Shown one piece after another: positions 35,901 to 54,751 of a stretch of 64,000 nucleotides of DNA (the first letter of the stretch is position 1; each line of letters begins with the position of its first letter). Source of the stretch: a virus. Made by a program: the position numbers and the translations under genes. The notes below the pieces were generated by a model that saw only the letters and a list, made by a program, of their open reading frames with translations, ran no database searches and had not been told where the DNA came from. The DNA lies in IMG/VR virus record IMGVR_UViG_3300017763_000006, positions 30,544-94,543 of that record; one strand, given 5' to 3'.

Positions 35901-38900
35901 ACGCAATCAATGTTAATAGTAAAGTCTTGTACCTTACCTCCAACGATGAAGTCAGATGCAGAATCAAATCCTTCTAACACGCTTCCATAAACACTCATAT
36001 TGTTTAAACCGCCGCTACCACGAGCATCTCTTAGAGAGGCGTATCTATTCTGACCATCTAAGAACAATGGCCTCATACTTACTCCTAACTGCTCGCATAT
36101 GTATGCGGCAACATTTGCCGATTTAATGTAGTGTTGATCAAGAGATGATTCGTCCTCAGAAGAAACCTCATTAGCTTCTCCTAATGGATTTTTACCATAT
36201 GTAATAACAAGCTTCTTGTTGCCCAAGGCCAGAAACTCTTTAAGTCTTAATATGTCACTTGAGCTAGGCATTTGGTCAGTGTTAGCTATCCAGCCCACAT
36301 CGTATGCGTTGCCAGACATTCTAAGATCATCTAATGAAACATTAACACTGGACATGTCTATATTCAAAGATGTCATTGAAGACTGTATTCCGCTATCTTT
36401 AAATCCAGACTTATATGTTTCTCTCTGGGTAAATCCTCCTATTTGAGCAACCTTAGACTCTCCATATTCATTTTTTGCTAAGATATTAAAATACAAATTA
36501 AGATTTATATCACCTTCAGAACTTAGTAATACATCAGTCCTTTCTGTTGCAGTACCGGCTATAAGGACAACAGAGGAGCCATTATTATCACTAAGTTTTT
36601 CTTCTACTACAAAATTTATTTCTGGCTCTACACTATAAAATTCTTCAAATGAATTTATACTAGAACTTAGCTTTGCTTGTAGTACAGCATCTTTGCCGTC
36701 GTATTCTGTAGGGTTAAACCAAGCACTATTAGACTGTACATTATTCAAATTGTAAACAAGAGAATCAAAGTTACCACTAGCTTCAGACCACATAAATGCT
36801 ATTCCAGAGTATGGGGCAACATTTTTGGTTGGGAAATTATACGTAGTTTCTCCAGCAATATTGTAGCCTATAATTCTCTCTCGTTCTTGAATAGACTCAG
36901 GAACTGGAGGTACAACAATAGTTTTAGTAAGCTGTTCGTAGGCTGCAAACATTGGAATAGGTTCACTATTCTCTCTGTTGTTAGAGTGGGGAGTTGGAAC
37001 AACAACTTCATCACAAGCAGTACAGTTCCAATCTTCTGTCTTGTGGGTTCCGTACAGCATTGCTAGATTATGCTGGTAATTAATCCACAATACGTTTCCC
37101 TTACAAGGTCTGTATTCGCATTGGTCCCAATATTTTGCTCTTAAATCTCCCTCTGTTATAATTGGTAGTTCACATCTAGAATGAAGGTCTCTGTAATTTT
37201 TCTTGGGTGTGATTCCTATTAAGCTAAACGAATCTGTTGGAGGCTTAGTAGTTTCAGTACATTGGTACAAATCAGAAGCAAAGTCATCGAAGAACCTAAT
37301 GTCTCCAACGCCAAAGCCTTTTAGCTTCAACCCCTTAAACTGCCCTATTGGACTCATAGTTTTTTCAGGGACAGTAGACTGTCTAATGTTATAATAAAGG
37401 TCTGTGCTTGGTTCTACTAAAGATTCTTCTGCGTCTCTAGCAGGATAGATACGCATCTTAATTTCTAATTTTTCCAATATATAATTTATAATGTTATTAG
37501 AATAATTATAAGCTCCACCGGCTTCGTAAATAGGATCATTGCCTACAAGAACTAGATTCCTATCTCCATAAGCGAGCCATTCCTTAATATTGTTTATTAC
37601 CTCGTCGCTCTGAAAAGATATCTCTGGGGTAATTATAAAAGCTAGCCCAGCATCTTGAGGTATACTAAGCTCCTCATTGTATACGGTTCGTCTGAAATCA
37701 TATCCCATTCCAGAAAACATACCAGACATAGAAGGTAAGAAATACTCAGCATCTTCTGGTTCAGCTAGGCTTTCATGCAAATTTCCAAAAGCATAGAACT
37801 CTACCACTTTACTATTGTGTGGATAGTAATCTCTACTCTCTAATAATCTAACGGCTCCAGCGTTAACATAATTTTGCCACTGCCAATTTTCACCACCGTA
37901 GTTAGTTTCCTGCGTGGATTTTTGATCATACCTGAACCAAGTTATAGTAGAATCTCTTTCTCCCATGCTGTCTGTAGGACAACCAATAGCCACCAAACTA
38001 CCATCCTCGTTGGTGTCTACGCTATATCCCATTCTAGATGTAGGTATATTATTATATAGTTGACTCCAACCTCCTCGTGTTGATTCTTCATCTCCTTGGG
38101 AATCGCTTGCTCCATGTAATTGAGAATATGTAATTTCTTTATTAAGCCTATATGGTTTAATTGAATAGTTCTCTATAAATCTAAACCTTAAAGACTCAGA
38201 GGATTTGTCCCAAAGTTCTTGTTTTAGATTTTTTGTAAAGATAGTATCAGTAGATTTTTCTTGCCATTCTTTATAAAGATTAAAAGCTTCTCCAAAAGTA
38301 GCATCTGAAACCTCTCTGGCATATTCAGTAGATAGGTAACTAATGTAAACATTTTGTATATAATTATCTAAAGTATTTTCATAATTATTATTGTACTGCC
38401 AAACCTGCACTGCGCTGTCTGCGTATGGAGACCCAATAACCAGTGTTTTTCCGTCGTCGCTAATCGCAACATCATGACCAAATCTATCTGAAAAATCATC
38501 GTTATAGGTAGTAGGCGAATCTATGTATTGTACTAACTCAAAATTATTTTCGTCTTTGTCTTTTTCAAATACAAATACTGCGCCGCCGCTAGGAGGTAAT
38601 AAATTAAATTCAGAATCATCATTGTTAAATTTGCCTAAATCTGACCCTAATAATCTAAACGCATTATTTTGATTGAGGGTAGGTATATCTGTCAAGTTCT
38701 TTAAGCACTTAACGCTTTGGGCTATCCAATCTTCGTCTATAGCGCTGGTAACTTGGACATAACCTTCTGCGGCTTCGCTTCCATAAATTGGAGCATTAAG
38801 AACGCCGTTGTCGTAAGTATATTGTTTGTAATAATCAATGAACTTATTTAAAGCTCCAGTTCTTAAACCGTTGTCATAATATCCAACAGCTTGAGTTCCT

Positions 38901-41900
38901 AATGATCTAGAATCATCTACGTATATGCCAAGCAAAGGTGGTAGCCCACTATGTATTACGTTCTCAGTTAATGGAAAAGTAGTTTGGAAGATGTCTACTA
39001 ATTCATTAAACATTAGATCGTCACGATCTTTATACTCTTGAGTTTCTACTCTATAAGAATAGTGTCTATGGACTTTGTGTTTAGTAATAAAGTTTGGTTG
39101 TGGATATTGGAAGTCTAAAGAACTTTCCTGATCAACATCTCCCCCAAGAACTGGCTCAAGTAGAATAATTTTAATATCAAAAACTACTGGTGGGTCGCAG
39201 AAATATCTAAATAGTATATCTCTATCTTGAAGCTCCTCAAGTATAGAAGACCAAGTTTTTCCCGGTGGATCAGATACAAGTTCGTTATTGAATATAATCA
39301 TGCCTATCGGGACAGGATAAGGTTCAACAGGAGAAAAACGTCTACTCCACATTGTACCCGGACCACCAGCTATAAGGACATCCTTATCTTCCCTAGACGC
39401 ACAGTCTAAAGAATGTCCAAGCTCTCTGCCTTCACCAAGGTTATACCACTGTTTTACTTCTGCTCTGAATGAATTATCTACTCCGGGGAAGGTCTTAAAA
39501 GTAGATGAATATGCATCTCTTCTAAATCCTGTGGGTAATACAAGTTGTTGTTGTAGAATAAATTTAGCCTTGTCGTCTTGATTTGTCCAATCTGCGCCAG
39601 ATGGTTCTGGATCTTTTTTATAGACGTAAATTTTACCAGAATTTTTTAGAACATAATTTGAGTCATCATCATTGTAAAAATCATTCGCCCCAAGCGTTAA
39701 GTCTTCTTGGGGATGACCAACCATTAACATATCTTTATGAGCAGTAAGTCCGTGTCCAAATCCTCCACTTGGAAGAATATTCTCAGCTGTTAGTTTTAAT
39801 CCAGAGTAGGCTACCTCTGGAACAGTTTCTCCGGGCTGAAGACTACTAGTGCCATATTCCCATTCTGACATTTCTCTAGGAACTTCAAGTATTTCTGCAT
39901 CACCAGTTTCTCCAATTACCAAAACGCTATAAGGAGCCTTTGGTATTAAGTTGGTGAATTTTCTTATTCCATAATAATGATTTTTGTATGTTTCTGTCAA
40001 AGAACCAAAAGCGGGAACGCTACTGTTAGTGTAAGTCGTAAACGATCTAATTACTCCACCGTCCACGCACTCTGGAGAGTACCAAGTTACGTCGTGAGTT
40101 TCTAAAGGTTGTTCCGTACACTTCAAGAATGCAGAGCTTTCGCAACCACCATAGCACACAGTGTTAACTCCCCGTATTTCATCAAGAGAAGAAACTGAAG
40201 TATATTTTTCGTCATTAGGACTTATGGGTAATCCATAATTAGTTCCATTCCAAGAATAAGACTCTAAATATGTGCCAACTTGACCTAATGGTTTTTTGTT
40301 GTATGTATTCATTCCGAAGTTAGCAAACAAAGTATCTTCTATTGGCCTACCAAGAGAAAGGAGTGGTAAGCTAGCGTCACTGTTGAAGGTTACGAATTCT
40401 GGACCCCTAGTTATCATTCCCATGCTACCCTGAACAGAATCAATTAAATTTTCAAAAATGACATCTTCACAATAAGCAAAAGTACTAATAGACGAGGACT
40501 TAGTGTCACCAGAAAAATCGTAAACATTTAGAGAAAGTGTGCTACTAATATTTACAGCGTCAGGAGCAAAAGAGTCTACCACCAAATCTACGCTGGCGTT
40601 AGTATATTCAGGGCTACACCTAACATATAACGGGAATTTGTCTGGAGCAGAACCAAACATGTCTCCAAAGTTTTCTTCACCGCCAGTTCCGATAGAGCCA
40701 ATTTGAATAGTATACAAATTAAGATCTGACGACTCAGAGTAACAACCGCTGGTGAATATTGGCATCTTGCCACTATCTTCTATAAACGCAGCTCCACTAG
40801 CCCAAAGCCACATTGTATCTTCTTCAATACCGTAAGCATCAGTATAGAGATCAATAGTTTCTTCTCTGTAAGCTTCTCCAGAAGCGTATATCCAAAGTTC
40901 ATCACTTATTTTTTCTTCTTCAAGTAGAGCTTCTTTCAAAGAAACGTCTAAAGAATGTATTTTAATTTCTGACCAACTGTAGGTTCCAGAAGGATAAACT
41001 AAATCATATTGAACAAACATTTGATCAACGTCTCTAGCAAAATAACGCTCTGATAATTCTTGATCTAAAACATCTCTATTGAAATACGACCAAGGTTCAG
41101 ATTCACTATCCTTAATGTCAGATATTGTTAATTCTGTAGTAATTTTATTCCAGCAATCTTCTGGATTTAAATAATGAGACTGTCTATTTACCAAACCATA
41201 GTTTTCAGTTGGGAACAGCTCGCTTTCTTTTGAAGGAGCATACAGGCTAACAATAAGTTTAGCTCCTTTATTGCCATCGGGCCAAAGTATGTCGCTGTCG
41301 CAATCGTGTTGAACAACTGTATTTATTCTAAAAGCATCGCCGTCAACAACATAGCCTCTAGGAAATCTCTTAGACAATCTTGGTGGAGCTGAGAAATAAC
41401 GATTTTCTAAACCGCCAAGGTGAAATCTCAGCATGTCATTTTCTACCTGAGAATGATAAGCCAATCCAGACGCATGAGCTAAAGAGGTTGGTAGATTAAG
41501 ATCTATTATATCTTGATATTCTAATCCGTTATTATAGAACTTATGATATATATAATCTCTTCCTACTCGTAACTTCATAACATCAAAGTCTAAATTGAAA
41601 TCACAATACTTAAATGCTCCTAACTGCCAAGAGTCCGTATCTTCATCTACAAATCGCCACAAAGGATTATTGTCTGATTCGTTAAAACCAAAAGATAATG
41701 AATGACCAGCAAAGAACGAATCTACTGAATCCACTTGGTAAGAAACATTCTCGCTTGAACCAATAATTCCTCTACCAACACTAAGATCATCTGAGCTTAA
41801 CGATCCCTCTATGCCGCCAGACCAAGGCGTGTGAGAAAGACCAATCTCGCTAACAAAGGCGTTGAATCCGACACCACTGCCACTAGAGTAGCCCAATGTT

Positions 41901-44900
41901 AAGTCACTGTTACCACTATGCAGAACAAATGGACTAGACTCACCTCTGAGCTTTTGCCAATCTAAAGGATTTGAAGTGTTGCCTCTTTCACTGTAGGTAT
42001 ACAGGCGCATCTTATTGTCGCCGTTTGCATTATAAGTAACCAGAGCAGACATTGGGAACATATAATTTCTATAATCATAAGCATCTTTGATGGAAATAAT
42101 TTGACCAGCGTTATCTCTTGCGCTAGCGGTTAGATGACCATCATCGTAATGCAGAGCATATTCTAAGTCTTGACCATTATCCCACTTGGAGGCTAACACG
42201 CCAGTTGCCCACAGGTTATAGCCCACGCCACTAACAGTGACATCTGGAGAAAATCTTGTATACAGAGAGAATCCACTGGCGGTAGGGACGTTGCCAAAAT
42301 TAATATAACCATCAACACCAGAAACTCTTACAGCTTTATCAAAAGAGTCTATAATCTGACCTTCAATTTCACTACCACCATATGTCCAATCTATAGATTT
42401 GTAAGAAGTGTTATGCTGAGAAGAGAATAAAGAATCGCTCTGGAATCTCATTCCCCTGTTTTCTATTATGCTGCTTTCTAAGTTAGAATTAAACACACCA
42501 GAATATTGAGTAGCACCAATAGAAGAATATACAGCGTCATTATCTATGTTATGAAAATCATAATAGCCAAGCAAGAAAGGCTGATTAAACTGAGGATTCT
42601 CAAAGGAGAAATCAAACTCTGTAGCATCAAAAGGACCGCCAAAAACGCTACCACTTGATCCACGCCATCTACGTGAATAATTAGTTTTTAAGGTATCTTC
42701 ATATACTTGATATGCATGTGGTATATTATCTATCTGTGAAAGATATGTACTATCTGTAAATAGTTTATTAGCATAATGATCTTGGGATAAGTAGAATTTT
42801 TCTGGATGTATACGTGTGTCCGTATTCCACAATTTCTTTGTTTCATACCCAAGCGTAAACATCTGCAACGACGAGGCGGGCTTGTACTTAATAACTAAAT
42901 CTGCTCCTTGGAATGAAGCGCCACTAGGAATTGGATATATATCTACATACAAAGACTCAAAGAATTTGCTGTTTGTAAATTTTTGAGGTTGACCCAGTTC
43001 TGGAATTTTGTCATAAATACTAAGAGGTATTGTATACTGTTTAAATTCTGTGCTGTCAACTACAACTGTATTGTCAATAATATAATGATCACCAGCTGGA
43101 CTATCAGTAATATCTTGATCATAGTAAGCAAACTTGTCTGATATAGTTTCAGAAGACAATCCTAATTCGTCGATGTTTAAGAAGCCAGAGACATTTGGTA
43201 TACTCCCAGTTTTACCATTTGTGTTTTGTAGAAATCCTCCAACCTGATCCGTCTGTACTAAAACTTTATCATCACTATATCCAACTACGTCGATAGGAAA
43301 ATCTGGTGTATTTGGCGCTTTTCGTGCTACAATAGAAAGATAAATCTCTTCCACTTCAAATGCGCTGTCGTCGCTGTAGATTAATTCGTAATCTGCTTTG
43401 CTCCAAGAATTATTACCAAAGTTAAAATCTCCACCAACTGGTTCTAATACAGAAACTGGTGTCTTGTGTTCAAATAACAGTTGCAGCTTCCCAGAGTCCT
43501 GTACTGGCTGAGTTTCGTGTAGCGTTACATGTCCCTCTATAAAATAGTTATTTAATCTTTCACTAAGTTCTCTAACAGACCTTGAGTCTTTGTTGTTACT
43601 GTAATATATGTTGCCGTCAATGTCTGGAGAAGTTTTCCAAATATTCGTAGTATTAGTTGGATATATATTATTACTATAATCTGTAGAAAGAACTCTAGTT
43701 GGTCTTAATGTTCTTTCTAATAATGTTCCTGTTTTAACTGTCTCTAAATGTAAAGGAAGTTTTCCGTCTGATATAATGCCACTTCCAAGACCTCTATTAT
43801 CAATTTCTATTGCAGATATTCTCAATCCATTTGTTGGTCTAATTCTATAGTCATTGGATTGTGTTGATATAGGCGCTCCATCAATTGATAAGTAATCATT
43901 TGGACCGGCTGGAACAAATCTACTATCAAGATTACAATGATGTTCAAATCCTTTATTAAAATCATCTTCACTAAAAGGCGTATATTTACAGTAACCCTTA
44001 ATGTCTAAACTTAAAGTGTACCCAGAGTCTTCTCCTAAAACGGGATATTCTGGATGGTAAGTGTCTAGCCTAGCCAAGTTTTGCTCTGGCTCACTAACAT
44101 ATGTAACATAATGAAAATGATTTTGTTTTTCATAATCTTGCTGTCCAGTAATTTTAAAATCTTTATATTTTGCAATAAGATTTCCAGAAGGATCTTCTAG
44201 TCTAATATTAGATATATCATAAGTAGGGGGTATATCTGTTTCATGATTAGTAATAGGAGCGGCAGCTCTCATAAAAAAGAAACTGTCTAATGGCGTAATT
44301 TGAGGTGGGCTAACTTCACACTTGTACGTGAACTCTCCCTCTGAGTATATAGAAGAAGGAGTTATATAAGAAAAAAGATCGTCACTTACTATATATCCTT
44401 CTGAATTATTTTGTACAATATTTCCTACGTGTGTTCCTTCATCAATACTTCTGTATACTCCAGAGCTATCTTCTCTTTCCGTGACAAATGATACTCCGTT
44501 CTTTTCTGTTATAATATCTTTTATTGGATATAGTTTGTCTGTAGCTATGAAATTATCTATATCTAATATCTTATCAAAGTGACCATGAAGTTTTTCAAAG
44601 TACTTGCTTTTTATTTTTCCATTTACTGAAATTTTTACAGAGAAGTTACTAATAGGCTTGTTAGCTCTAGATGTAAATTCTATATTTTTTGAATGATCTT
44701 TTCTATCTGTTCTGAGATTCCACTCAACCATCGGACCTTTAGAATAGACCTTTGTAGAGTTATTTGCATTTAAAGGTACATACAAACTTTCTGGTATGGC
44801 AGATACTCCATAATCAATATAGTTTTGAGATTCAATATCAAATAATATATCAGATATATTTGTTATGGCTCTTTTTATCTGAAGCGGTGTAGACTTTAAT

Positions 44901-45169
44901 TTAAGAGAGTTTTTAATCTTGATTGTTTTAGCTAAAAATTGAGGTTTAGGATCTAACCCTCTGTTTGTACTTTCAGAAGAACCAAACGTTGATCCAAATA
45001 CTTCTTCAACAAAACCACCGTAGACAACTGCTAGTTTTGATCTCAGTTTAGCGACACCTTTTAGTCTCCCCTTAATGGAAGCTCTTTTTGTAGCGTCAAC
45101 ACGCATAGAGAAAGGCTGTCTTATCTTAGCCCTAATATCTCCATGATTATCTTTACAAGAATGCGTCAT
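32942..45169 (-). CDS. Giant 4,075-residue tail protein with FG-GAP propeller repeats
   Basis: Residues ~1-940 are beta-rich with no clear family. About 950-1,117 (VDGYINFGNVPTASGFSL to FVSEIGLSHTPW) looks like a LamG/concanavalin-type jelly-roll. About 1,380-1,480 has short repeats such as IDLYTDAYG, MWLWASG and MPIFTSG, and a similar stretch returns at ~3,990-4,030. Seven FG-GAP-type repeats are visible at ~1804 (GFGHGL), 1917 (ELGHSL), 2230 (FGHDVAISDDG), 2380 (MGYSVDTNEDG), 3598 (FGYKVTIYDDKIYVGAP), 3725 (FGYDIAIDSD) and 3838 (FGSNISL), mostly ending in a GavyvFe-type strand. A DDSRS (DxSxS) segment lies at 2085-2089, between repeats 2 and 3. Two paralogous alpha/beta domains lie near 2,430-2,590 and 2,925-3,075. 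It is a virion surface or tail-fibre candidate, perhaps adhesive. Confidence 0.75.
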   Translation of the reverse strand: MTHSCKDNHGDIRAKIRQPFSMRVDATKRASIKGRLKGVAKLRSKLAVVYGGFVEEVFGSTFGSSESTNRGLDPKPQFLAKTIKIKNSLKLKSTPLQIKRAITNISDILFDIESQNYIDYGVSAIPESLYVPLNANNSTKVYSKGPMVEWNLRTDRKDHSKNIEFTSRANKPISNFSVKISVNGKIKSKYFEKLHGHFDKILDIDNFIATDKLYPIKDIITEKNGVSFVTEREDSSGVYRSIDEGTHVGNIVQNNSEGYIVSDDLFSYITPSSIYSEGEFTYKCEVSPPQITPLDSFFFMRAAAPITNHETDIPPTYDISNIRLEDPSGNLIAKYKDFKITGQQDYEKQNHFHYVTYVSEPEQNLARLDTYHPEYPVLGEDSGYTLSLDIKGYCKYTPFSEDDFNKGFEHHCNLDSRFVPAGPNDYLSIDGAPISTQSNDYRIRPTNGLRISAIEIDNRGLGSGIISDGKLPLHLETVKTGTLLERTLRPTRVLSTDYSNNIYPTNTTNIWKTSPDIDGNIYYSNNKDSRSVRELSERLNNYFIEGHVTLHETQPVQDSGKLQLLFEHKTPVSVLEPVGGDFNFGNNSWSKADYELIYSDDSAFEVEEIYLSIVARKAPNTPDFPIDVVGYSDDKVLVQTDQVGGFLQNTNGKTGSIPNVSGFLNIDELGLSSETISDKFAYYDQDITDSPAGDHYIIDNTVVVDSTEFKQYTIPLSIYDKIPELGQPQKFTNSKFFESLYVDIYPIPSGASFQGADLVIKYKPASSLQMFTLGYETKKLWNTDTRIHPEKFYLSQDHYANKLFTDSTYLSQIDNIPHAYQVYEDTLKTNYSRRWRGSSGSVFGGPFDATEFDFSFENPQFNQPFLLGYYDFHNIDNDAVYSSIGATQYSGVFNSNLESSIIENRGMRFQSDSLFSSQHNTSYKSIDWTYGGSEIEGQIIDSFDKAVRVSGVDGYINFGNVPTASGFSLYTRFSPDVTVSGVGYNLWATGVLASKWDNGQDLEYALHYDDGHLTASARDNAGQIISIKDAYDYRNYMFPMSALVTYNANGDNKMRLYTYSERGNTSNPLDWQKLRGESSPFVLHSGNSDLTLGYSSGSGVGFNAFVSEIGLSHTPWSGGIEGSLSSDDLSVGRGIIGSSENVSYQVDSVDSFFAGHSLSFGFNESDNNPLWRFVDEDTDSWQLGAFKYCDFNLDFDVMKLRVGRDYIYHKFYNNGLEYQDIIDLNLPTSLAHASGLAYHSQVENDMLRFHLGGLENRYFSAPPRLSKRFPRGYVVDGDAFRINTVVQHDCDSDILWPDGNKGAKLIVSLYAPSKESELFPTENYGLVNRQSHYLNPEDCWNKITTELTISDIKDSESEPWSYFNRDVLDQELSERYFARDVDQMFVQYDLVYPSGTYSWSEIKIHSLDVSLKEALLEEEKISDELWIYASGEAYREETIDLYTDAYGIEEDTMWLWASGAAFIEDSGKMPIFTSGCYSESSDLNLYTIQIGSIGTGGEENFGDMFGSAPDKFPLYVRCSPEYTNASVDLVVDSFAPDAVNISSTLSLNVYDFSGDTKSSSISTFAYCEDVIFENLIDSVQGSMGMITRGPEFVTFNSDASLPLLSLGRPIEDTLFANFGMNTYNKKPLGQVGTYLESYSWNGTNYGLPISPNDEKYTSVSSLDEIRGVNTVCYGGCESSAFLKCTEQPLETHDVTWYSPECVDGGVIRSFTTYTNSSVPAFGSLTETYKNHYYGIRKFTNLIPKAPYSVLVIGETGDAEILEVPREMSEWEYGTSSLQPGETVPEVAYSGLKLTAENILPSGGFGHGLTAHKDMLMVGHPQEDLTLGANDFYNDDDSNYVLKNSGKIYVYKKDPEPSGADWTNQDDKAKFILQQQLVLPTGFRRDAYSSTFKTFPGVDNSFRAEVKQWYNLGEGRELGHSLDCASREDKDVLIAGGPGTMWSRRFSPVEPYPVPIGMIIFNNELVSDPPGKTWSSILEELQDRDILFRYFCDPPVVFDIKIILLEPVLGGDVDQESSLDFQYPQPNFITKHKVHRHYSYRVETQEYKDRDDLMFNELVDIFQTTFPLTENVIHSGLPPLLGIYVDDSRSLGTQAVGYYDNGLRTGALNKFIDYYKQYTYDNGVLNAPIYGSEAAEGYVQVTSAIDEDWIAQSVKCLKNLTDIPTLNQNNAFRLLGSDLGKFNNDDSEFNLLPPSGGAVFVFEKDKDENNFELVQYIDSPTTYNDDFSDRFGHDVAISDDGKTLVIGSPYADSAVQVWQYNNNYENTLDNYIQNVYISYLSTEYAREVSDATFGEAFNLYKEWQEKSTDTIFTKNLKQELWDKSSESLRFRFIENYSIKPYRLNKEITYSQLHGASDSQGDEESTRGGWSQLYNNIPTSRMGYSVDTNEDGSLVAIGCPTDSMGERDSTITWFRYDQKSTQETNYGGENWQWQNYVNAGAVRLLESRDYYPHNSKVVEFYAFGNLHESLAEPEDAEYFLPSMSGMFSGMGYDFRRTVYNEELSIPQDAGLAFIITPEISFQSDEVINNIKEWLAYGDRNLVLVGNDPIYEAGGAYNYSNNIINYILEKLEIKMRIYPARDAEESLVEPSTDLYYNIRQSTVPEKTMSPIGQFKGLKLKGFGVGDIRFFDDFASDLYQCTETTKPPTDSFSLIGITPKKNYRDLHSRCELPIITEGDLRAKYWDQCEYRPCKGNVLWINYQHNLAMLYGTHKTEDWNCTACDEVVVPTPHSNNRENSEPIPMFAAYEQLTKTIVVPPVPESIQERERIIGYNIAGETTYNFPTKNVAPYSGIAFMWSEASGNFDSLVYNLNNVQSNSAWFNPTEYDGKDAVLQAKLSSSINSFEEFYSVEPEINFVVEEKLSDNNGSSVVLIAGTATERTDVLLSSEGDINLNLYFNILAKNEYGESKVAQIGGFTQRETYKSGFKDSGIQSSMTSLNIDMSSVNVSLDDLRMSGNAYDVGWIANTDQMPSSSDILRLKEFLALGNKKLVITYGKNPLGEANEVSSEDESSLDQHYIKSANVAAYICEQLGVSMRPLFLDGQNRYASLRDARGSGGLNNMSVYGSVLEGFDSASDFIVGGKVQDFTINIDCVVIGGQRYCTGYFHDIIPIKLNGATKLAAFKKSIQDTRSASNIEPQLRTGITKVSFSVPEKEEHHDDFNLFRLYFSAHNDTALESEPFDIYISNCSRNVSLENQDSGGSYTIEDYGDDGSFSETTISLGATISLSPSVPTKTVDIQVPTDVEQIELFVHRNQTYRKADIGSEQDLSNNRTIKLFAVSGVRIPVNQKYIETKTPITEKYFVTVPGSPEYSYQQDYLREISHPSQQYCEQASPGSEICAEEPILGYGAGAGDIEDGPVVIAQEVYHQAGYFVGRNKSRVTIISDPSIIQGPTIKAEGSDSANRDLAFFLSSLYPHTNFPSPEAGRQYPDFYKIISPERSSPSRLINAYPDNDGLNYRFGGYESNSLSATSYSDTEGKKQILPTPPQDFVRQPFDSMLPIDEVVDIGKFRKLPPPLQSSTVDAMRKAGQYEAIDQLYEDWYVNNFEVVQAHYSSKSKFHDTVDGVVYKDAGYQERIPPLMRATGKDHLDFNFFGSGYPGDLFGYKVTIYDDKIYVGAPFTPYNTTNITKWDDVVSNSLNGPTYGTEVGFNGGAGAVYILEKDTSKSNGAGSTSLEITTGLPWDCVQKIRPEQLSVGFSGINPEQASGIYGNHNYTNEFLQLNSYKSDMFGYDIAIDSDILAISAPNHSFDIFFEHTPSEFIRKEFNNQFDISTVIPHDLGFASERVDFISSGVSILNHGSVFTYENRIADWGTKEQTWDEIHKISTLGSGTRIQNSQENIMFGSNISLSRAKRNDGDYILGISAPVEKISGNDKAGSVFAYDGMLRKLRPSFPHPDTYISGRVYGDGDLEIESTVFNISNGITPNKQFFQRGRVVANAEGEIFIEVSGQDKLDKGYVTHRPYIKAVRGSYLFGRPIENDMNLFTDAYRLPESGSLPLLSLGPERDSVYNKADLYCYSAVQDSGIINLYASGVPSDYYGSYQTVVDQHSENDVDKLNDINLHSTMSLVARGGPKRASKRR

Positions 45170-45187: not shown

Positions 45188-48100
45188 TTACTTAGGTAGC
45201 GTTGAGGTTCCCTTGACAAGCCTACCGCCATCTCCAACTTTAAATGTTTGAATTTCTTTCTTAACTTCTTCAAGAATTTGCGAGCTAACATTTTCTTTAA
45301 CAGCTTGTAATATTCCACCGCCGTTAAGATTAATATTAACTTCCACTGGTTGAACTTGTACTGTCATGCTTACATTTTCTAGCCTTGACACAACGTCAGA
45401 AAAGTCACTTGTAAATTGATCAAATATACTTGTTAAAGCATCAACTGGAACGCCAGACCCTTGGTCAGAAGCTTCTGTTTTTTCATTGTTAAATGTTTGC
45501 GTAAGCATTTTATTCATGTTTGCCAGATGAGTATCTATGCTGGTCAGTAATGATGTTACTGGAGCTAAATCTATAGCCTGTGAAGGTGATCCTTCTGCTG
45601 CCATCATTTGTCCACCAAACAGTGAAGACATTGACGCAGAGTCTGCTGCCTTGAACGGACTACCAGCAGAGTATCCTCCGTTGTCAAATGTACCTTCAGG
45701 TTTGTATTGGCTCGCATCAGCTACAGAAGCCATAGGATCGGCACTAGTTCCCCTAACAAAGTCTGCTACGCTAAATGTAGATGCAGTATCAGCTGCTTGT
45801 TTTTGCGGATCTTCTTGTCCACCAAAACCAAACGCAGAAGCAATACTGCTACCAACATTTCCAGCCATTTGTGCAGCACCACTTGCAATACCAAGCGGAT
45901 CTAGAATACCTCCGGCAGTTTCAGCAGCCCCAGTAACCGCGCCAATAGGATCACTAGCAACACCGGCAGCACCTCCAGCCATTTGTGCAACACTGGTTGC
46001 GACTCCAAGAGGGTTCAACATCGAAGTTACAGAGTCTACCAAAGATTCTGCTGTGCTTCTACCAGCGCTAGCTCCAACCTCGCCCGCTCCTACGTATCCA
46101 CCAAGACCACCAAGGCTTTTTTCGCCTTCCTTTCTTCCAATGTCAGCTCCAATATCTCCTGCAACACCCTTAATGCCATCCAAAAACATATTAGGAATGC
46201 CTTCTCGTGAGTTTACATCAACCACTGAAGCTCCAGCTTCTCTTTCTGCTTGTCTCGCATTTTTAGCTTCAATATTAGCTTGCTTGCGATCAGCATAAGG
46301 ATTGACATCTTCAACAACACTTTTTAGATTTCCTATTATTCCGTTGCCCGCGCTAGATGCTTTGTCTTCAGTTTTACCGCCTAGACCCAACATATCCATT
46401 CCACTTGACAAAAGAGAACCGCCTAGATCCGCTGCCTTAGAACCAATACCAAGTGGGTCTAATACAGACGAAACGCCGCTCATTACTTTTGACATCATTC
46501 CCTTTGATTCAGTAGCTGCAACAGATGCGATTGAAGCTTTAGCTTTGTCTTCGCCTCCCATTGGAACGCCCTTGCCAGCATCTTCACTATAAGTCTTTGT
46601 AAAGTTAAATAAGTCTTGGGCTTTTTCACTACCGGGACCAACAGACATTGCTCCACCGTCACAACACAGTGCGCCACTCTCTAAAGACTGAAGAATCTTT
46701 TGAAGAACATCTACTTCTTCTTTAGAACTTTCTGGTGTAACTTCTACTGCTGCTTCTTTAGCAGCTTCAGATGCAGCTCCTTCTTTTTCGTCTGTAGGAC
46801 CAGTTTTTGATTTCTTGTACAGTTCAACATCCATCATCTTTTGTTTCTTTTCTTCATCGCTAGTATTTCCATAAAGCCAATTGTCAGACTCTATACCTCT
46901 ACTCTTTTCAATATCTTTTTGTCGATCATCAATCATTGTTTGCAGTCTTGCTGCTTCTCCATCGTCTCCTCTTTCTGTCGCTGCCTTCTGTTGTTTCTCA
47001 AGTAGTACTTGACTATTAACAAGGCTTTGTGTTTCTGATGATAATCCATAACTAGGAGTTGCTGGTTTTGATTCTTCTTTTTGTGCTGTTGACTCAACAG
47101 TTGCGTCTACAGCTTGCGATGCTATGTTTTCTTTAGCTGCTTTTACATCTTGATCTATTTTAGCTTCGTCTATTGATGCGGCAGATTCTACTTGTTGTTT
47201 GTTTCCAATATACCCCGGCTTTACTGTTGCAGCTTCTTCAGCAAGACCAGCTTCTGGGCTTTTTTCTTTCTCGCCCGGAGCAGCTGGTGCTTCTAGTACA
47301 GTTTTTTCTGCTTCAACTCCACTAAGCAATCCAACAACATCAAATCCACCGATAGTAGACTTGAGCGCTTCATAACCAGTTGAAATACTGTCAGCTAATG
47401 AGGTAAGTGGGTCTTCTGAGTCAGCTAAATTTGCTTCCATAGCTTTTTGTATATCACTAGAAGCATTTTTATAAGCTACTCCAAAGTCAATAGTGTCATC
47501 TTCCTTCTTAAGTCCAGACTCTCTAGATTCACTCTTAGATATAAAGTCATCAATATTATCTGCCTTATATGTTCCTTTAACTTGTTCTTCTGACATTCCA
47601 AGTCCAGCAGCTACTTCTTTTATGCCTCCTCCTTCTTCTTTGACTTTCTTTGCGAAATTAGTTTCTGCATTTCTTTGTGCTAGTTCATCAGATCTAATCT
47701 TATCTTGTACGCTTAAGTCTTTATAGGCTCCTATTCTTCCAGTTGACTTAGCTTCATTTAATCTTTCGCTTGCAGCTTCAGTCTTTCTGATAGATTTTGC
47801 CTCATCAGTCCTTGCGTTAATAGCGCTCTTTGTAGTCATGACCCCTTCAATAATCTTTGTTACAGGAGCCATAAAACCTTCTAATGCTCCCATTCCGTAA
47901 TCGGAAACTGAACCATCAGAAGTCCTCTCAGACATTTCAGTGAATCGTTTGCCAATACCTTCATTAAAGTTACCTGTGGCTAAATCTTTTAGTGCTTCTC
48001 CCGCGAGCATAACACCGTCTATAGCAGTACTTGCACCCATGCCGCCAGTTCCCTTGGCTAACATACCACCTGTTTTTCCAATACCCTGAGTAAATAAAGA

Positions 48101-51100
48101 TTTTGTAAATTGGCCTGTAGCTTGCCCAGCCGCACTGTTAGCCAAATAACTACCGCCCCTCATGATTCCACTACCAACTGCTCCAACGCCACTCTTGATT
48201 CCACTACCAACTGCTCCAACGCCCCTACCAATCGCTCCAGCAACGCTTTTTGTGCCTCGGTATGCTGCACCAACTGTATTGTCAGCAAGCTTAGAACCAA
48301 AGTCAAGAGCAGGTTGTCCAAAATTCTTACTTGTTTGATATGCTTTACCTAGACGTTCAGTAATACCAGTAGCTCTAGTATTTATACCGCCTGCTAACTG
48401 ACGACCACTATTGAACTTATCAGCTATACCTTTTCCAAAGTTGCTAATTCTTCCAAGTATGCCTGTCTTTGTAGAAGCTTTAACTGCGTCATCGCCAAGT
48501 GTAGCTGCCTTTGCTGCCTTTGAAGCTTGTGCGGCTTTTGTAGCTTGTCTGGCTTGTCTGGCTTTTGATATTCTGTTGGCAAGCTGTCCACCTTTCTCTG
48601 CAAATTTTGGCCCATAATTAATTGCAGCTCTACCCATTTGAGCAATGCCTCCGGGTGAGGACAGAACATTTTTTAATGTACCTAAAACAGTACTGTTCTT
48701 GTTTACAGCGTCAGAAGAGTCTGGGAAATCTCCAGAGTTTACAACATTAACATCGCTGGTTCCACCGCAACACAAGTCAGCTTTACTCATAGATGTAGGA
48801 GACGTAGCGGATGTGTTTTTAAAATCTTTCTCTGCTGTTTCAGGAGTAGATCCTTCCGCGCCAGAACCTTTAGTTCCTTCGCCATCTCCTTTGCCTTCTT
48901 TTGCTTCAGCCACTCTTTTATTAACTAAATCAACCGTCGCCTCTACTAGTTTATCTAGTGAATTAACTAGTTGTCTTTGTACATCAACTGCTCTTTGCGC
49001 ATTTTCCACATTAATGTCTGCATCGCCCTTCATTGATTCAGCAATTCCCTGACCCTGTTTTTGCAATGCTTTAACTTCTGGGCTAGCTTTTGTGCCTTTA
49101 GATGCCATTTCAGATGCTGACTGTGCATCCATGCCTCCTCTCATAAGTCCTGTTGTCCTAACTCTTTGATTGAGGTCTTGTATGTTCATGCCTCTATATT
49201 CTTTAACGCCAGCTTTTTCCAGCGACTCTAGGTTCTTAGATCCTCTACCATAATCTGTTCTGCTAAATCCACCCATTAGCGCTGAATTGCCAGTAGCAGC
49301 AGCTGCAACTGCTCCTTGAGCTGCCATCTCTTCTACAAACTTCTCATAGCTTCCACCAAGCAGTGCATCAGCAGCTTTTTTCTCAGCAGCTTCTTTAGCT
49401 TGTATGGTTTTAATTTCACTCTCAATAGCTTTCATCAATTCTCGTTTAGTCGCAAGTTCTGCTTCAGCAAATGTGCTTACGTCTCTTTCCATTCTCTTGA
49501 AAGCATCTGTTCTCATCTCTCCTTGGGCTTCAACAGCTCCTGCTGTAAATTCTCCTTTATCGTCTGTTTCTCCCGCTCTCATTTGAATGTCTCTAACATT
49601 CTGCTGCGCTCCCCTAACTTCTGACTGTCTTTGAGCCATGCTAGCTGGGTCCATTGTCATCTTTGACAAACCTAGTCCTTCATTTGCTAGATTTCTTTTA
49701 TCTAGTGCTGCACTAGTTCTATCTTCCATAGTAACTTCAGCACCACCAAACTTTTCTATCCAATCCTTAGATTCTAATTCAACATCAATGGCCTTTTGCT
49801 TTGCGTCAATTAAAGCATCTTCTAAATCTAATAATTTTTCACCAGCTTTTATTCTTTGGCTTTCAACTTGTGCAAGTTTTTGTAAAGCTGGTATAACTTG
49901 CGACATTGTAGTCTCACCAAGATCTTTAAGAACATCATCAAGAGCTTGCATGTCACCCGCAAGGATTGCGTTCATTTCTGTCTCACCAATGTCAGCTCCC
50001 TTGAGAGCGTCTAATATTCTTTCTTTTACTTCTGGTCCTATGTCGTCTGGTATTTGATTTACAATGGCTTCAGCAAGAGCCTCTTGTCTTTCAGGTCCAG
50101 TGCCAGCTCCTCCAGCGCCCCTTTGGAACTCAGCCATTAGATTTTCTTTTGCTTCTTTGGTTGCATTAACATAGAATTTTTGAGCAGCATTAATAGCGTT
50201 TATATTTTCTTCAAATTTCTTAATTTCTTTGCCTTTGCCGCCAAGTCTTTTAAGTGCAGCAGAAGCTTGGCTAACTGCATTGTTCCAAGTGCCATCTCCA
50301 ATACCTTGAGCCGCACTTGTGACACCAGCTTGTAATGTTGCTATCGTACTTTCTAAACCGCTAGTGCTACCATCCATTGCTCTCTCTAGGTTTTCTGCTT
50401 GAAGAGCTATGGCTCCAGCAGCGGCCTCTACGCTTTGGAATCCTAAATTCATCGCCTGAAAAGCTTTTTTTGTTCTTTCAGCTTCTTTGGCTACATTTGC
50501 AAATGCTTCTCGTAATTCTTTTTGATCAGCAAGAGCTGCTAAAGATGGATTAGCTGCATTTAACATTTGCATAAAGTCATCAAAACTACCGCCAGCAGCA
50601 GCTACTTGTTTTTGCAAAGCGTTCATCATCGGTTGATTTTGACTTACATACTCTCGCTTGGCTTGATCGCCTTCTTTTGTTCTTGCTTTATTTTCTGCTT
50701 CTACTTTTGTTTTACGTTGTTCACTTGTTCCAAATCCAAAACTAAAACCAATTAAGCTAACTAAGAAATCACCAATAGCGGTTGACATTGTATGTATGGT
50801 TGCAGTTGCGTCAGCATTAGCTTGAGCTATCTCTCGTTGTGTTTGGACTACTTGCTGACCAGTAGAAGCCGTTCTTGATAAAGCCTCACCAGCTGTTATG
50901 AGACCCCTGTTAAATTCATCCTGAGCCTTGGAAGCTTCTTCTCCAGATTTTTTAAGCATTTCATTAGTTTTTACCAACGACGCTTCAGCCCTTGCTCTAG
51001 AAACAGCGGCCTTTCTTGCTTTTTCACCACTTCCAGTTAACCAATTTAATATTTTACCTAGATTAAATAAAGGTAAAGCAATCATCCAAAGACCTTCTTG

Positions 51101-54100
51101 AAATTGTTTCCATCCCTCTTCGTCTGAAGCAGATGCGCCCGCTTTATCAACATCCCCAGCTTCAACGGCAGCTTCTTTCATTTGCTTGGCGTACTCTTCT
51201 CCAGCTCTACCAACAGCTCCTAACACTAAAGCAAAACCAACTAACACAGCAGTAACTGCAATAATAGCAGCAACAACAGGAAACATAGCCACCAATTCCG
51301 CTATTTTAGCAATAGCTACAGCAAACGATCCAGTAGCTTCAGCACCATCAGCCACGAGCGCAGTAGCACTCGCCGCAGCTTCAGCCTTATCAGCGGTTCC
51401 AGCAGCTATAGATGCTGCAATAGCTGCTCTTTCAGCTTTCATCAATTTCTGCATTAACCCTACATTTCTTCTTGTGGCGAGAATGTTATCGCCAACTCCT
51501 TTTTTTAGACCTCCAAAGATGCCAGTTAAACTCATAGCTCCAGACTGAAAACTCATTATTGCACTATGGGCTTTTGTTGCTCCATCAGCAAGCAATTTCA
51601 TACCACCCATTGCTTGAAAAGTTCCAATCAAGGCAGTAGCTTGTACCGCTAAATCAACAAACTGTTTACCAAGATGAGCCATGAACCCAGAGTTCTCGTC
51701 TATAGTAGGAGACAATGCTACTAAACCAGCAGTAATAGCACCTAGAGCCATCATCATTCCCATGAATTGCCCTGAACTATCTTCTACCGCTTTATTGTTA
51801 TCATTTTTAGCACTAGTACTATCATCAGCAGCGTCGGCATCTGCCTGTGTCGAAACGACATGTTGCTGCGTTGCTTCCATGTCAGCCAAGACTTGCGCCG
51901 TGTGATCAACTTGTGCTTGTGCGGCATCTACTTGAGCTTGGCTTCCTGACCCAAGTTGTGTGGTCATGGTAATTAAAGCTTGAGCAACAGTGTTAGCGGC
52001 TTGACCAAGAGCCTGCAAAGCAGATTGCAATCCGCTAGTATCAATCATTATTTGCCCGCCAGATTGAACTCCACTTCCACTACTTCCCGATTGGAAGCCT
52101 TGAACCATAGTTCCAACGATTCCACCTTTGGCATATTTGCCAACCTTATTCATTTTATTTAATTTGCCATATCCAATTTCTTGTGCAGATTTCTTATTAA
52201 TGACAAACTCGCCGGGAGTCAACAAAGCAGGCGTTGTGTCGCTTCCCGATGGGCCACCAAATGCTCTCGTAAGCAATTTCTGTGCTTGCTCTGATCCTGA
52301 TTTTCCTTGTGCAGAATTGGGGAATCCCATGCCTTGTCTAGCGCCTTGAGCTGTTTTGTAAGTGTTAAAAGCTTTTTCGGCTATAGGCGTAATAACTTTT
52401 TTCAATTCATCGGCAGCATTTGCTGCTTCAAAGTTTTTAATCTTCTTTGTAAAACTAGCAATATTATCACTACTATAAGTATTCTTAGCATCACCAGCAT
52501 CACCAGCGTAAGAACCCAAACCAAACATACCAGCGGTTGGGCCTAAGCCTTTAGGAAAATCAAAGTCTGCACCAGCATCTCTATCGTTTCCATATGGCGT
52601 ACCTAAACTGAGTATGCTAGCCTCAAACAAACTACCTACTACTGCCTCAAGGTTAGCAGATTTAAGTATGGAGGCTTGGTTTCCGGGTTGAGCTTTAAAA
52701 TCTTCTGATAAGTCTGTAGCTCCTTTTGCTACAGTTTTATGAATTCCCGTCAATAATGTGTTTTCTAATTGCTCTGCTTTACTTTTTTCTAAAGATCCAG
52801 CAAATATATTAAACCCTTGTTCTCTTCCTTGAGACTTAGCTTTAATCTGATCTTTTTCTTTCTTTATTGCTAAACCTATCTGTGAATCTTTTTTAGTACC
52901 AGCAATAATTTTATTTAAAGCAGCATTATTATCTAGTGCTTTAAGAATTTCAGATTGTGGAATTGTTCCTTCTATAGCTTTAGTTTTGCCAACCGGATTT
53001 AAAAATGCACCAGTATATGTCCCTTTGTCTTTGCCAAGAGCAGCCGCAGTTTTTTTGTCTAGTGAATCTAAGTCTCCAAGCAATCTAACTCTACCAATTC
53101 CATCTTCACCTTGTCTGCCCGTTTTGCTTAGTTGTGATCCTTTAGACATTTTTCCTTTCATTTCGGCAACCGTCAGACTACTATTGTTTGGCATATATTC
53201 TTCTGCTTCTCCTCCGTAATTTAACATCTGAACAATGCCACCCTTGTTGTACTTCCCGCTGTTCATTGCAGACAACTTGTTTTTACCAAGTTTGCCCACG
53301 CTGCTTTTCTTAATGACAAATTCACCGGGAGTCAACATTGCTGGAACAGTATCTTTATTACCAACGCCGGGAACTAAACCTCCACTCGCAAAAGCCTGTA
53401 TCTTGCCGCCGTCTTTTTTGCCAATAGATCCAGCCAAGCCACCTAAGAACCCACTAATATTCTGAGTGAATTTTATAGCTGCGAATCCAGCAAGTAGTGG
53501 TAATATAGGTCTTACTGCATCTGCTAATTTAATCATAGCGCTAGCTAAACTTAATACAGTGTCAGCCATTATTTGGAATGTAGAAGTTGTTGTTACATTA
53601 CGTATTAATTCTAAGAACTCTTCTTTAACTTTAGTTATCTGTACAGCTAGTGCAGCTTGAGCTTTTGCTGCGTCACTAGCTAAACTTCCAGAGCCAGCCT
53701 GAGCTACATTCAAAGCCTCTTGAGCTACAGAGAATTGTTGAAGCAAAGGTAAAACTTTACCAATCTGCCTAAATCCACCTAACTGTTCTGCAATTTGAAC
53801 AAATGTTAAGTCTCTCTCTCCAAGACCTTTTAGAGCTTGGGACAATCTTCTGGTAGCTTCATACGGACCTACGAACTTACCTTCAATATCAGTTAGCTCT
53901 ACGCCAAACTGTCTGAGATATTCAATAGTTTGTGGGCGTTGAATACGAGTAAATATAGTACGTAAACCAGTAGCAATACTTTCAGCAGACTCTCGCGTAG
54001 TAGCTCTAACACTAGTAAATAATGCAATAAGTTCATTTAAGTCACCACCAGCAGACTTAAACACACCACCAGTTCTACGAATGACTGCAACTAAGTCACC

Positions 54101-54751
54101 AGCCTCAACAGCAAACTGACCAGCTACAGCATTTAAAGAACCAAGTTGAGCTTCTAATGCAGCAGCGCCTTGACCAAACTGATTAAGAATAGCAACAGCA
54201 CCTTCAGCCGTTTGAGAGATATTGTCAAACGTAGGAGCTAACTCTGTTTTAGCTAAAGTCCCTAATGCTATCTGGGTGTCTTTAGCAGACAAACCTGTCT
54301 GAGCAAGAATACGAGAAACGCTTAATAAGCTTTGAGAAGAAACACCCAAACTAGTGGAAAGATTAGAAATAGTTCCAACAAGACCATTTAGTCCCGCTAC
54401 TGTTTTACCAGTTACTTGAGAAATCTTTACGAGTTCTCTTTCAAAATCAATAGACGATTGTATAGCGCCACTAAGAGTAGTAGTAAATAAACTAACAGTC
54501 CTAGTTGCTATAGCCAGCGCGGAAAATCTTCTAATAGAAGCCGCAAAGCTTCTCCCCATCTTATTGCTAGCAGTAGTAGCTTCGTTTGTTGCTTTTGTAA
54601 TATTTTGTATATTACGTTGAGCTTTTGCGGCGTTCTGAACCTGTACCTGTACATTGACCCCCTGCAACTGCTGTTGTATTTTGTTCACAACCTGAGTAAC
54701 ATTTTTGGGAGCTTGTAACTGTAACTCTGCCGTCAGCACGAATTTTGCCAT
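45188..54751 (-). CDS. Tail tape-measure protein, 3,187 residues, with embedded nuclease-like domain
   Basis: The N-terminal ~450 residues are the phage minor-tail/tape-measure domain (AIATRTVSLFTTTLSGAIQ, NSSIDFERELVKISQVTG, FGVELTDIEGKFVGPYEATR). Two TPGEFV modules follow at ~455 and ~829 (LTPGEFVIKKSS, LTPGEFVINKKS), each ending in KGG. Between them, E710 (GSLFEAS), D729 (ADFDFP) and D754-A-K756 form a PD-(D/E)XK-like set. Hydrophobic segments occur near 1,150-1,190 (VVAAIIAVTAVLVGFALVLG). The rest is long, Ala/Lys/Glu-rich helical sequence with Gly/Ala repeats (DPLGI.S.AA..AG) and two Cys-Cys motifs (LCCGG, LCCDGG). Length sets the tail length: ~1.5 A per residue would mean roughly 0.4-0.5 um. 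Confidence 0.92.
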   Translation of the reverse strand: MAKFVLTAELQLQAPKNVTQVVNKIQQQLQGVNVQVQVQNAAKAQRNIQNITKATNEATTASNKMGRSFAASIRRFSALAIATRTVSLFTTTLSGAIQSSIDFERELVKISQVTGKTVAGLNGLVGTISNLSTSLGVSSQSLLSVSRILAQTGLSAKDTQIALGTLAKTELAPTFDNISQTAEGAVAILNQFGQGAAALEAQLGSLNAVAGQFAVEAGDLVAVIRRTGGVFKSAGGDLNELIALFTSVRATTRESAESIATGLRTIFTRIQRPQTIEYLRQFGVELTDIEGKFVGPYEATRRLSQALKGLGERDLTFVQIAEQLGGFRQIGKVLPLLQQFSVAQEALNVAQAGSGSLASDAAKAQAALAVQITKVKEEFLELIRNVTTTSTFQIMADTVLSLASAMIKLADAVRPILPLLAGFAAIKFTQNISGFLGGLAGSIGKKDGGKIQAFASGGLVPGVGNKDTVPAMLTPGEFVIKKSSVGKLGKNKLSAMNSGKYNKGGIVQMLNYGGEAEEYMPNNSSLTVAEMKGKMSKGSQLSKTGRQGEDGIGRVRLLGDLDSLDKKTAAALGKDKGTYTGAFLNPVGKTKAIEGTIPQSEILKALDNNAALNKIIAGTKKDSQIGLAIKKEKDQIKAKSQGREQGFNIFAGSLEKSKAEQLENTLLTGIHKTVAKGATDLSEDFKAQPGNQASILKSANLEAVVGSLFEASILSLGTPYGNDRDAGADFDFPKGLGPTAGMFGLGSYAGDAGDAKNTYSSDNIASFTKKIKNFEAANAADELKKVITPIAEKAFNTYKTAQGARQGMGFPNSAQGKSGSEQAQKLLTRAFGGPSGSDTTPALLTPGEFVINKKSAQEIGYGKLNKMNKVGKYAKGGIVGTMVQGFQSGSSGSGVQSGGQIMIDTSGLQSALQALGQAANTVAQALITMTTQLGSGSQAQVDAAQAQVDHTAQVLADMEATQQHVVSTQADADAADDSTSAKNDNNKAVEDSSGQFMGMMMALGAITAGLVALSPTIDENSGFMAHLGKQFVDLAVQATALIGTFQAMGGMKLLADGATKAHSAIMSFQSGAMSLTGIFGGLKKGVGDNILATRRNVGLMQKLMKAERAAIAASIAAGTADKAEAAASATALVADGAEATGSFAVAIAKIAELVAMFPVVAAIIAVTAVLVGFALVLGAVGRAGEEYAKQMKEAAVEAGDVDKAGASASDEEGWKQFQEGLWMIALPLFNLGKILNWLTGSGEKARKAAVSRARAEASLVKTNEMLKKSGEEASKAQDEFNRGLITAGEALSRTASTGQQVVQTQREIAQANADATATIHTMSTAIGDFLVSLIGFSFGFGTSEQRKTKVEAENKARTKEGDQAKREYVSQNQPMMNALQKQVAAAGGSFDDFMQMLNAANPSLAALADQKELREAFANVAKEAERTKKAFQAMNLGFQSVEAAAGAIALQAENLERAMDGSTSGLESTIATLQAGVTSAAQGIGDGTWNNAVSQASAALKRLGGKGKEIKKFEENINAINAAQKFYVNATKEAKENLMAEFQRGAGGAGTGPERQEALAEAIVNQIPDDIGPEVKERILDALKGADIGETEMNAILAGDMQALDDVLKDLGETTMSQVIPALQKLAQVESQRIKAGEKLLDLEDALIDAKQKAIDVELESKDWIEKFGGAEVTMEDRTSAALDKRNLANEGLGLSKMTMDPASMAQRQSEVRGAQQNVRDIQMRAGETDDKGEFTAGAVEAQGEMRTDAFKRMERDVSTFAEAELATKRELMKAIESEIKTIQAKEAAEKKAADALLGGSYEKFVEEMAAQGAVAAAATGNSALMGGFSRTDYGRGSKNLESLEKAGVKEYRGMNIQDLNQRVRTTGLMRGGMDAQSASEMASKGTKASPEVKALQKQGQGIAESMKGDADINVENAQRAVDVQRQLVNSLDKLVEATVDLVNKRVAEAKEGKGDGEGTKGSGAEGSTPETAEKDFKNTSATSPTSMSKADLCCGGTSDVNVVNSGDFPDSSDAVNKNSTVLGTLKNVLSSPGGIAQMGRAAINYGPKFAEKGGQLANRISKARQARQATKAAQASKAAKAATLGDDAVKASTKTGILGRISNFGKGIADKFNSGRQLAGGINTRATGITERLGKAYQTSKNFGQPALDFGSKLADNTVGAAYRGTKSVAGAIGRGVGAVGSGIKSGVGAVGSGIMRGGSYLANSAAGQATGQFTKSLFTQGIGKTGGMLAKGTGGMGASTAIDGVMLAGEALKDLATGNFNEGIGKRFTEMSERTSDGSVSDYGMGALEGFMAPVTKIIEGVMTTKSAINARTDEAKSIRKTEAASERLNEAKSTGRIGAYKDLSVQDKIRSDELAQRNAETNFAKKVKEEGGGIKEVAAGLGMSEEQVKGTYKADNIDDFISKSESRESGLKKEDDTIDFGVAYKNASSDIQKAMEANLADSEDPLTSLADSISTGYEALKSTIGGFDVVGLLSGVEAEKTVLEAPAAPGEKEKSPEAGLAEEAATVKPGYIGNKQQVESAASIDEAKIDQDVKAAKENIASQAVDATVESTAQKEESKPATPSYGLSSETQSLVNSQVLLEKQQKAATERGDDGEAARLQTMIDDRQKDIEKSRGIESDNWLYGNTSDEEKKQKMMDVELYKKSKTGPTDEKEGAASEAAKEAAVEVTPESSKEEVDVLQKILQSLESGALCCDGGAMSVGPGSEKAQDLFNFTKTYSEDAGKGVPMGGEDKAKASIASVAATESKGMMSKVMSGVSSVLDPLGIGSKAADLGGSLLSSGMDMLGLGGKTEDKASSAGNGIIGNLKSVVEDVNPYADRKQANIEAKNARQAEREAGASVVDVNSREGIPNMFLDGIKGVAGDIGADIGRKEGEKSLGGLGGYVGAGEVGASAGRSTAESLVDSVTSMLNPLGVATSVAQMAGGAAGVASDPIGAVTGAAETAGGILDPLGIASGAAQMAGNVGSSIASAFGFGGQEDPQKQAADTASTFSVADFVRGTSADPMASVADASQYKPEGTFDNGGYSAGSPFKAADSASMSSLFGGQMMAAEGSPSQAIDLAPVTSLLTSIDTHLANMNKMLTQTFNNEKTEASDQGSGVPVDALTSIFDQFTSDFSDVVSRLENVSMTVQVQPVEVNINLNGGGILQAVKENVSSQILEEVKKEIQTFKVGDGGRLVKGTSTLPK
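48163..48223 (-). repeat. Tandem 33-base repeat inside the tape measure
   Basis: The 28-base string at 48163-48190 recurs at 48196-48223, an offset of 33 bases (11 codons). It encodes the tandem peptides GVGAVGSGI-K-S and GVGAVGSGI-M-R of the tape measure. It probably arose by replication slippage and could change the tail length by 11 residues per unit. Confidence 0.8.

Follow-up and report, generated by a model that had tools for sequence, protein, structure and literature searches.

The window analysed here is a stretch of 64,000 bases that forms part of an IMG/VR virus record of 94,543 bases. On its minus strand, it encodes a tail tape measure protein of 3187 residues (45188–54751), identified by its N-terminal part: in a PHROG search with the window protein, residues 17–437 match PHROG 4211 ('tail length tape measure protein') with an E value of 4.4e-18. 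Sequence inspection revealed two modules carrying the motif TPGEF, at residues 474 and 845, which are kept in relatives and enclose a region termed the slot. The first module (residues 455–508; 53228–53389, minus strand) forms the left boundary of the slot, and the second (residues 830–880; 52112–52264, minus strand) the right boundary. The slot in between (residues 509–829; 52265–53227, minus strand) shares about 20% identity with its counterparts in relatives, compared with 53%–75% for the N-termini. Two hydrophobic segments are located downstream of the slot, one at residues 996–1014 (51710–51766; Kyte-Doolittle 19-mer mean of 1.84) and a stronger one at residues 1159–1177 (51221–51277; mean of 2.96), the latter being a candidate membrane helix. 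A third TPGEF module is present near the C-terminus of several tape measures of the group, for example at residue 2653 of L007, residue 2323 of L008 and residue 2720 of L019.

Adjoining the tape measure gene is that of a giant protein of 4075 residues (32942–45169, minus strand), which has no PHROG match and contains an FG-GAP repeat above the Pfam cut-off; the further large open reading frames beyond it match no family. On the plus strand, a DNA polymerase is split over 5618–9918, with ORF 5618–7177 corresponding to positions 245–615 of PHROG 405 and ORF 8359–9918 to positions 627–1073; between the two halves lie a polymerase exonuclease subunit (7167–7847) and ORF 7801–8358. Two adjacent glycosyltransferase-like genes (PHROG 2170; 10280–13056, plus strand) are found near the replication genes.

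Relatives of the tape measure were retrieved via its N-terminus (residues 1–509), which gave 26 of them in viral contigs in the first search. An alignment of N-termini used as the query yielded 80 loci among at least 429 related IMG/VR stretches, and a more distant query gave 15 loci. Used as a single-sequence query against viral contigs and phage records, the slot domain itself found nothing, and the relatives were reached only through the N-terminus. Naming a host from the binned related contigs was rejected, as the bins (Verrucomicrobiales, SAR202, Micavibrio and others) were too mixed. Two distinct contigs with such a tape measure, L123 and L129, were binned in one SAR202 genome; given this and the spread of relatives over unrelated phyla, the phage contigs in these bins are probably contamination.

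The domain in the slot of the window protein consists of an N-terminal half (residues 574–673; 52733–53032, minus strand), for which AlphaFold predicts a β-hairpin, helices and a third strand, and a nuclease-like core (residues 674–774; 52430–52732, minus strand). A hidden Markov model iterated over 87 distinct tape measures recovered 71 copies of this domain in 68 tape measures, the window copy at an E value of 1.6e-23. Four positions stand out in the alignment of these 71 domains. The putative motif I glutamate, Glu710 (52622–52624), is located on a helix within the motif GSLFE and is conserved in 69 domains, being replaced by Gln in the other two. The putative motif II aspartate, Asp731 (52559–52561), belongs to an FDF motif and is found in 70 domains, with aromatic residues kept on both sides. 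The putative (D/E)xK motif III, Asp754-Ala755-Lys756 (52484–52492; Asp754 at 52490–52492 and Lys756 at 52484–52486), lies on a strand; its acidic residue is present in all 71 domains (61 Asp and 10 Glu), and its lysine in 66, the five exceptions being three Thr, one Ala and one Arg. Moreover, Gly706 is kept in 70 of the 71 domains, and Lys770 (52442–52444), on the helix after the DxK motif, in 63 of 68 and invariantly in A4. The few members in which Lys756 or Glu710 is replaced may be inactive, judging from their residues. DAT takes the place of DAK in L028, L074 and L084, with the Glu and Asp kept; these three are possibly inactive, or their lysine is displaced.

Thus, Glu, Asp, (D/E) and Lys are retained in 93%–100% of the domains despite an overall identity of about 20%, and in a first alignment of 22 domains the only invariant columns were Glu710, Asp731 and Lys756; together these place the residue pattern beyond chance. 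Exchange between Asp and Glu is frequent only at the acid of the DxK motif, a pattern that a PD-(D/E)XK-type active site tolerates. Furthermore, dN/dS within the domain ranges from 0.08 to 0.30 between close pairs with unsaturated synonymous sites, indicating that the domain is kept functional by purifying selection. The initial annotation, which had proposed a PD-(D/E)XK nuclease-like domain between two TPGEF modules, is borne out in its observations: the domain is flanked as described, Glu710, Asp754 and Lys756 are found at the assigned positions of ORF 45188–54751 on the minus strand and are conserved, and the basic helix reported after the DxK motif carries Lys770. One correction is needed, as the strand aspartate had been given as Asp729, two residues away from the truly conserved Asp731.

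We predicted the structures of the window slot and of the slot of a compact relative, L004, by AlphaFold. The window model, from a 59-row alignment, has a pLDDT of 79.3 and a pTM of 0.70; its strands at model positions 58–66, 72–76, 128–134 and 234–239 correspond to residues 577–585, 591–595, 647–653 and 753–758, respectively. In this model Glu710 is located in a helix, Asp731 at a short bridge, and the DAK motif on a strand, with a long helix after it. The L004 model (36 rows) reached a pLDDT of 90.4 and a pTM of 0.81, and its elements run in the order of helix with Glu, bridge, short strand with Asp, helix, strand with DAK, helix with Lys and strand (DSSP: H131–147, E151, E160–161, H165–174, E184–191, H203–212 and E221–223). 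The two models agree in placing the Glu on a helix, the Asp at a short strand or bridge and the (D/E)xK motif on a strand. Of the canonical first β-strand the models show no more than a single-residue bridge, and they have an additional N-terminal sheet. The predicted order of elements in L004 is compatible with an αβββαβ core supplemented by an N-terminal sheet. However, Foldseek searches of the PDB with both models returned no PD-(D/E)XK structure and no confident match of any kind, so that the proposed fold, compatible in its order of elements, was not recovered by structure comparison; nor did the window model match anything in BFVD. Searches of Pfam, PHROG and PDB sequences with the domain, its alignment and single members gave nothing meaningful, with no Pfam family reaching its cut-off, and VRR_NUC was absent from 45 phage records.

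A connection to known nucleases emerged from profile comparison through a second slot family, family B, which carries a GxxFE–PxD–ExK–K pattern and occurs in eleven tape measures (L021, L063, L073, L079, L084, L095, L109, L112, L114, L115 and L120). The window family (71 rows) aligns to the family B profile with a probability of 90%, an E value of 1.4e-6 and a score of 32.8, a similarity inflated in that the seeds of families B and C were chosen by eye for the motif. In this alignment the Gly, Phe-Glu, Asp, (D/E)xK and helix Lys are in register. Controls stayed well below this score, at no more than 12.4 for column-permuted family B profiles (60 trials) and no more than 17.3 for unrelated slot domains. 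The members of family B find each other by hidden Markov model at E values below 1e-17, a result less affected by the choice of seeds. Family B in turn scored 23.6 against Mrr_cat sequences drawn from bacterial genomes by PF04471 (permuted profiles, at most 10.5; unrelated profiles, at most 15.8), with the Glu, Asp and (E/Q)xK in register, and a third slot family, family C (L056, L086 and L100), scored 27.6 against Mrr (permuted, at most 14.7). In the window domain, a short insertion separates the Asp strand from the DxK strand; compared directly with Mrr_cat, even with the insertion removed, the window family scored about 16.5, which is below the 17.3 of an unrelated domain and hence at noise. 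Since no direct similarity to Mrr rises above noise, membership in the PD-(D/E)XK group is argued only via family B. Accordingly, the PD-(D/E)XK interpretation is partly supported at the sequence level, by residue conservation and the profile chain but not by direct profile matches.

Comparison of tape measures revealed that the slot diverges far faster than its flanks. Among 755 pairs whose N-termini are more than 55% identical, the slot averages 19%–23% identity, against 55%–90% for the N-termini and 62%–76% for the second TPGEF module. The change is sharp in individual pairs: L013 and L015 are 98% identical before the slot, 24% in the slot and 97% in the second module; L101 and L105 are 97% identical before it, 38% in it and 88% downstream; and L004 and L005 are 84%, 27% and 63% identical before, in and after it, respectively. 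In most pairs, divergence extends to the 400 residues that follow the second module, and part of the slot variability may accordingly be general to tape measures. For 82 window-family domains, TPGEF-like modules were found on both sides in 66, only before in 10, only after in five and on neither side in one, several of these proteins being cut by contig ends.

A nuclease-like domain was recognised in 86 of 99 tape measures (one contig counted twice), 79 of which have the window family; the other 13 are mostly cut off by a contig end. Some tape measures that lack the window family have other nuclease-like families in the slot. Enzyme-like domains of further types also occur. ADP-ribosyltransferase domains exceed the Pfam cut-off of 23.4 in L070 (26.9 bits) and L095 (31.3 bits). 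HAD-like domains in 22 proteins, as well as kinase-like P-loop, nucleotidyltransferase-like and GNAT-like domains, were assigned from motifs and sub-threshold matches only, and an SNase-like label for L082, L085 and L031 is tentative, coming from a motif and one sub-threshold Pfam match (E value of 0.073). Two or more domain types are combined in 29 of the 99 tape measures, some relatives having three or four types; a single domain was recognised in the slot of the window protein. The long tape measures L112, L109, L110, L091 and L095 combine nuclease-like and HAD-like domains with nucleotidyltransferase-like, kinase-like or ADP-ribosyltransferase domains, and the HAD-like and nuclease-like domains are often adjacent in such proteins.

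We consider it somewhat better than an even chance that the slot is an exchange site holding, in the window protein, a divergent metal-dependent nuclease of the PD-(D/E)XK type, with Glu710, Asp731, Asp754 and Lys756 as its active site and Lys770 as a helper, which is presented to the host envelope and cuts nucleic acid. In favour of this reading are the observed residue conservation, the purifying selection seen in dN/dS, the profile chain to Mrr-type nucleases, the variability and replacement of the slot, and the other enzyme-like slot domains, together with two precedents: the lambda tape measure during injection has been found next to the inner-membrane ManYZ complex and the defence nuclease SNIPE (PMC13190303), and in Streptomyces contractile systems the tape-measure-related effector Tme carries a nuclease domain of demonstrated activity (PMC11126660). 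Against it are the lack of a direct match in Pfam, PHROG, PDB or Foldseek searches, the Mrr score at noise and the selection of family B seeds by eye; in addition, any such nuclease would have to be kept inactive in the cell that produces the phage. We infer the domain's catalytic activity and substrate, as well as its ejection and its refolding once in the host, and propose the following putative model. Initially, the tape measure would be coiled in the tail tube. At infection it would exit the tail ahead of or with the DNA and insert in the host envelope. The slot domain would leave the tail with it and refold at or beyond the inner membrane, where, in or across that membrane, it might cut host DNA, RNA or a rival's DNA as infection begins. 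Related phages would retain the tape-measure frame and swap the enzyme in the slot. As to the group as a whole, we see an even chance that a large group of tailed phages use their tape measures as delivery vehicles, whose TPGEF-bounded slot exchanges at least three PD-(D/E)XK-type nuclease families, an SNase-like family, ADP-ribosyltransferases, HAD-like and kinase-like enzymes, amounting to a polyvalent-protein system in the tail ruler.

The same observations could be read in other ways. The slot might hold a catalytic domain of another fold, perhaps a new metal-dependent enzyme or hydrolase, which acquired its Glu, Asp, Asp and Lys site by convergence and would still be a delivered enzyme. 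The confident L004 model with no Foldseek match in the PDB fits this explanation, and the reduced first β-strand and extra N-terminal sheet fit it as well; however, family B, which has the textbook GxxFE–PxD–ExK spacing and compares with Mrr, aligns to the window family with all motifs and Lys770 in register, and we regard a different fold as unlikely. It is more improbable that a nuclease in the slot acts on the phage's own DNA or within the virion, in DNA-end trimming, tail-tube clearing or assembly processing. Such housekeeping would fit a domain that is nearly universal in complete members (86 of 99 with the incomplete ones included), but a slot that diverges rapidly, has its family replaced and can hold ADP-ribosyltransferases or HAD-like domains fits a target outside the virion.

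The least probable explanation is a host-contact or structural module, in which the variability would reflect different inner-membrane partners and the Glu, Asp and Lys residues would be structural. In lambda-like phages, the inner-membrane proteins required for injection do correlate with a variable region of the tape measure (PMC13190303). Nevertheless, acids and lysines kept so strictly in such divergent sequences, with Asp/Glu exchange confined to the DxK acid, form the pattern of an active site, and recognisable enzymes occupy other slots.

The usual view of tape measures is that they act as rulers and as channels for DNA entry. Should the slot domains be active, a payload would also be carried by the very protein with which the phage first contacts the host membrane, ahead of all phage gene expression. 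Such a slot would give injected effectors a defined and movable location, account for the sharp one-segment differences among tape measures and point to a site in tail-like machines that is naturally suited to cargo. The named catalytic residues make this reading testable by point mutants. In the full-text literature searched, which mostly leaves out subscription papers, we found no phage tape measure described as carrying either a PD-(D/E)XK domain or a slot for exchangeable enzymes.

Among known systems, the closest molecule is Tme of the Streptomyces davawensis contractile injection system (PMC11126660), likewise a tape-measure relative with a nuclease domain, hydrophobic segments and proposed tail-like delivery. 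Tme, however, has a C-terminal nuclease of the EndA type (DRGH, H-N-N) with demonstrated activity and belongs to a bacterial contractile injection system, whereas the window protein is a phage tape measure with an internal, predicted E/D/DxK domain. In its motifs this domain shares the order of helix Glu, strand Asp and (D/E/Q)xK with Mrr_cat (PF04471) and other PD-(D/E)XK nucleases. Slot families B and C compare with Mrr, but the window family matches Mrr_cat only through family B and differs by its insertion before the DxK motif and its extra N-terminal sheet. Tape measures with cell-wall hydrolase domains, such as the SPbeta YomI relatives annotated as lytic transglycosylases, also contain an enzyme, but one acting on peptidoglycan. 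Polymorphic toxins (PMC3482391) and MuF phage toxins (PMC5576092) similarly join a conserved delivery part to an exchangeable enzyme part; in polymorphic toxins the exchangeable part is C-terminal, whereas in the window protein it is internal (residues 509–829 of 3187). The nearest concept is that of the polyvalent proteins of phages and plasmids (Iyer et al. 2017, PMC5512222), which unite ADP-ribosyltransferase, nuclease and other domains in one chain and have been proposed to enter the cell together with the DNA. Those are described as separate virion or transfer proteins, some of them fused to MuF, portal or RNA polymerase, and PMC5512222 nowhere uses the term 'tape measure'; in several of the relatives analysed here, three or four domain types are found within a single tape measure.
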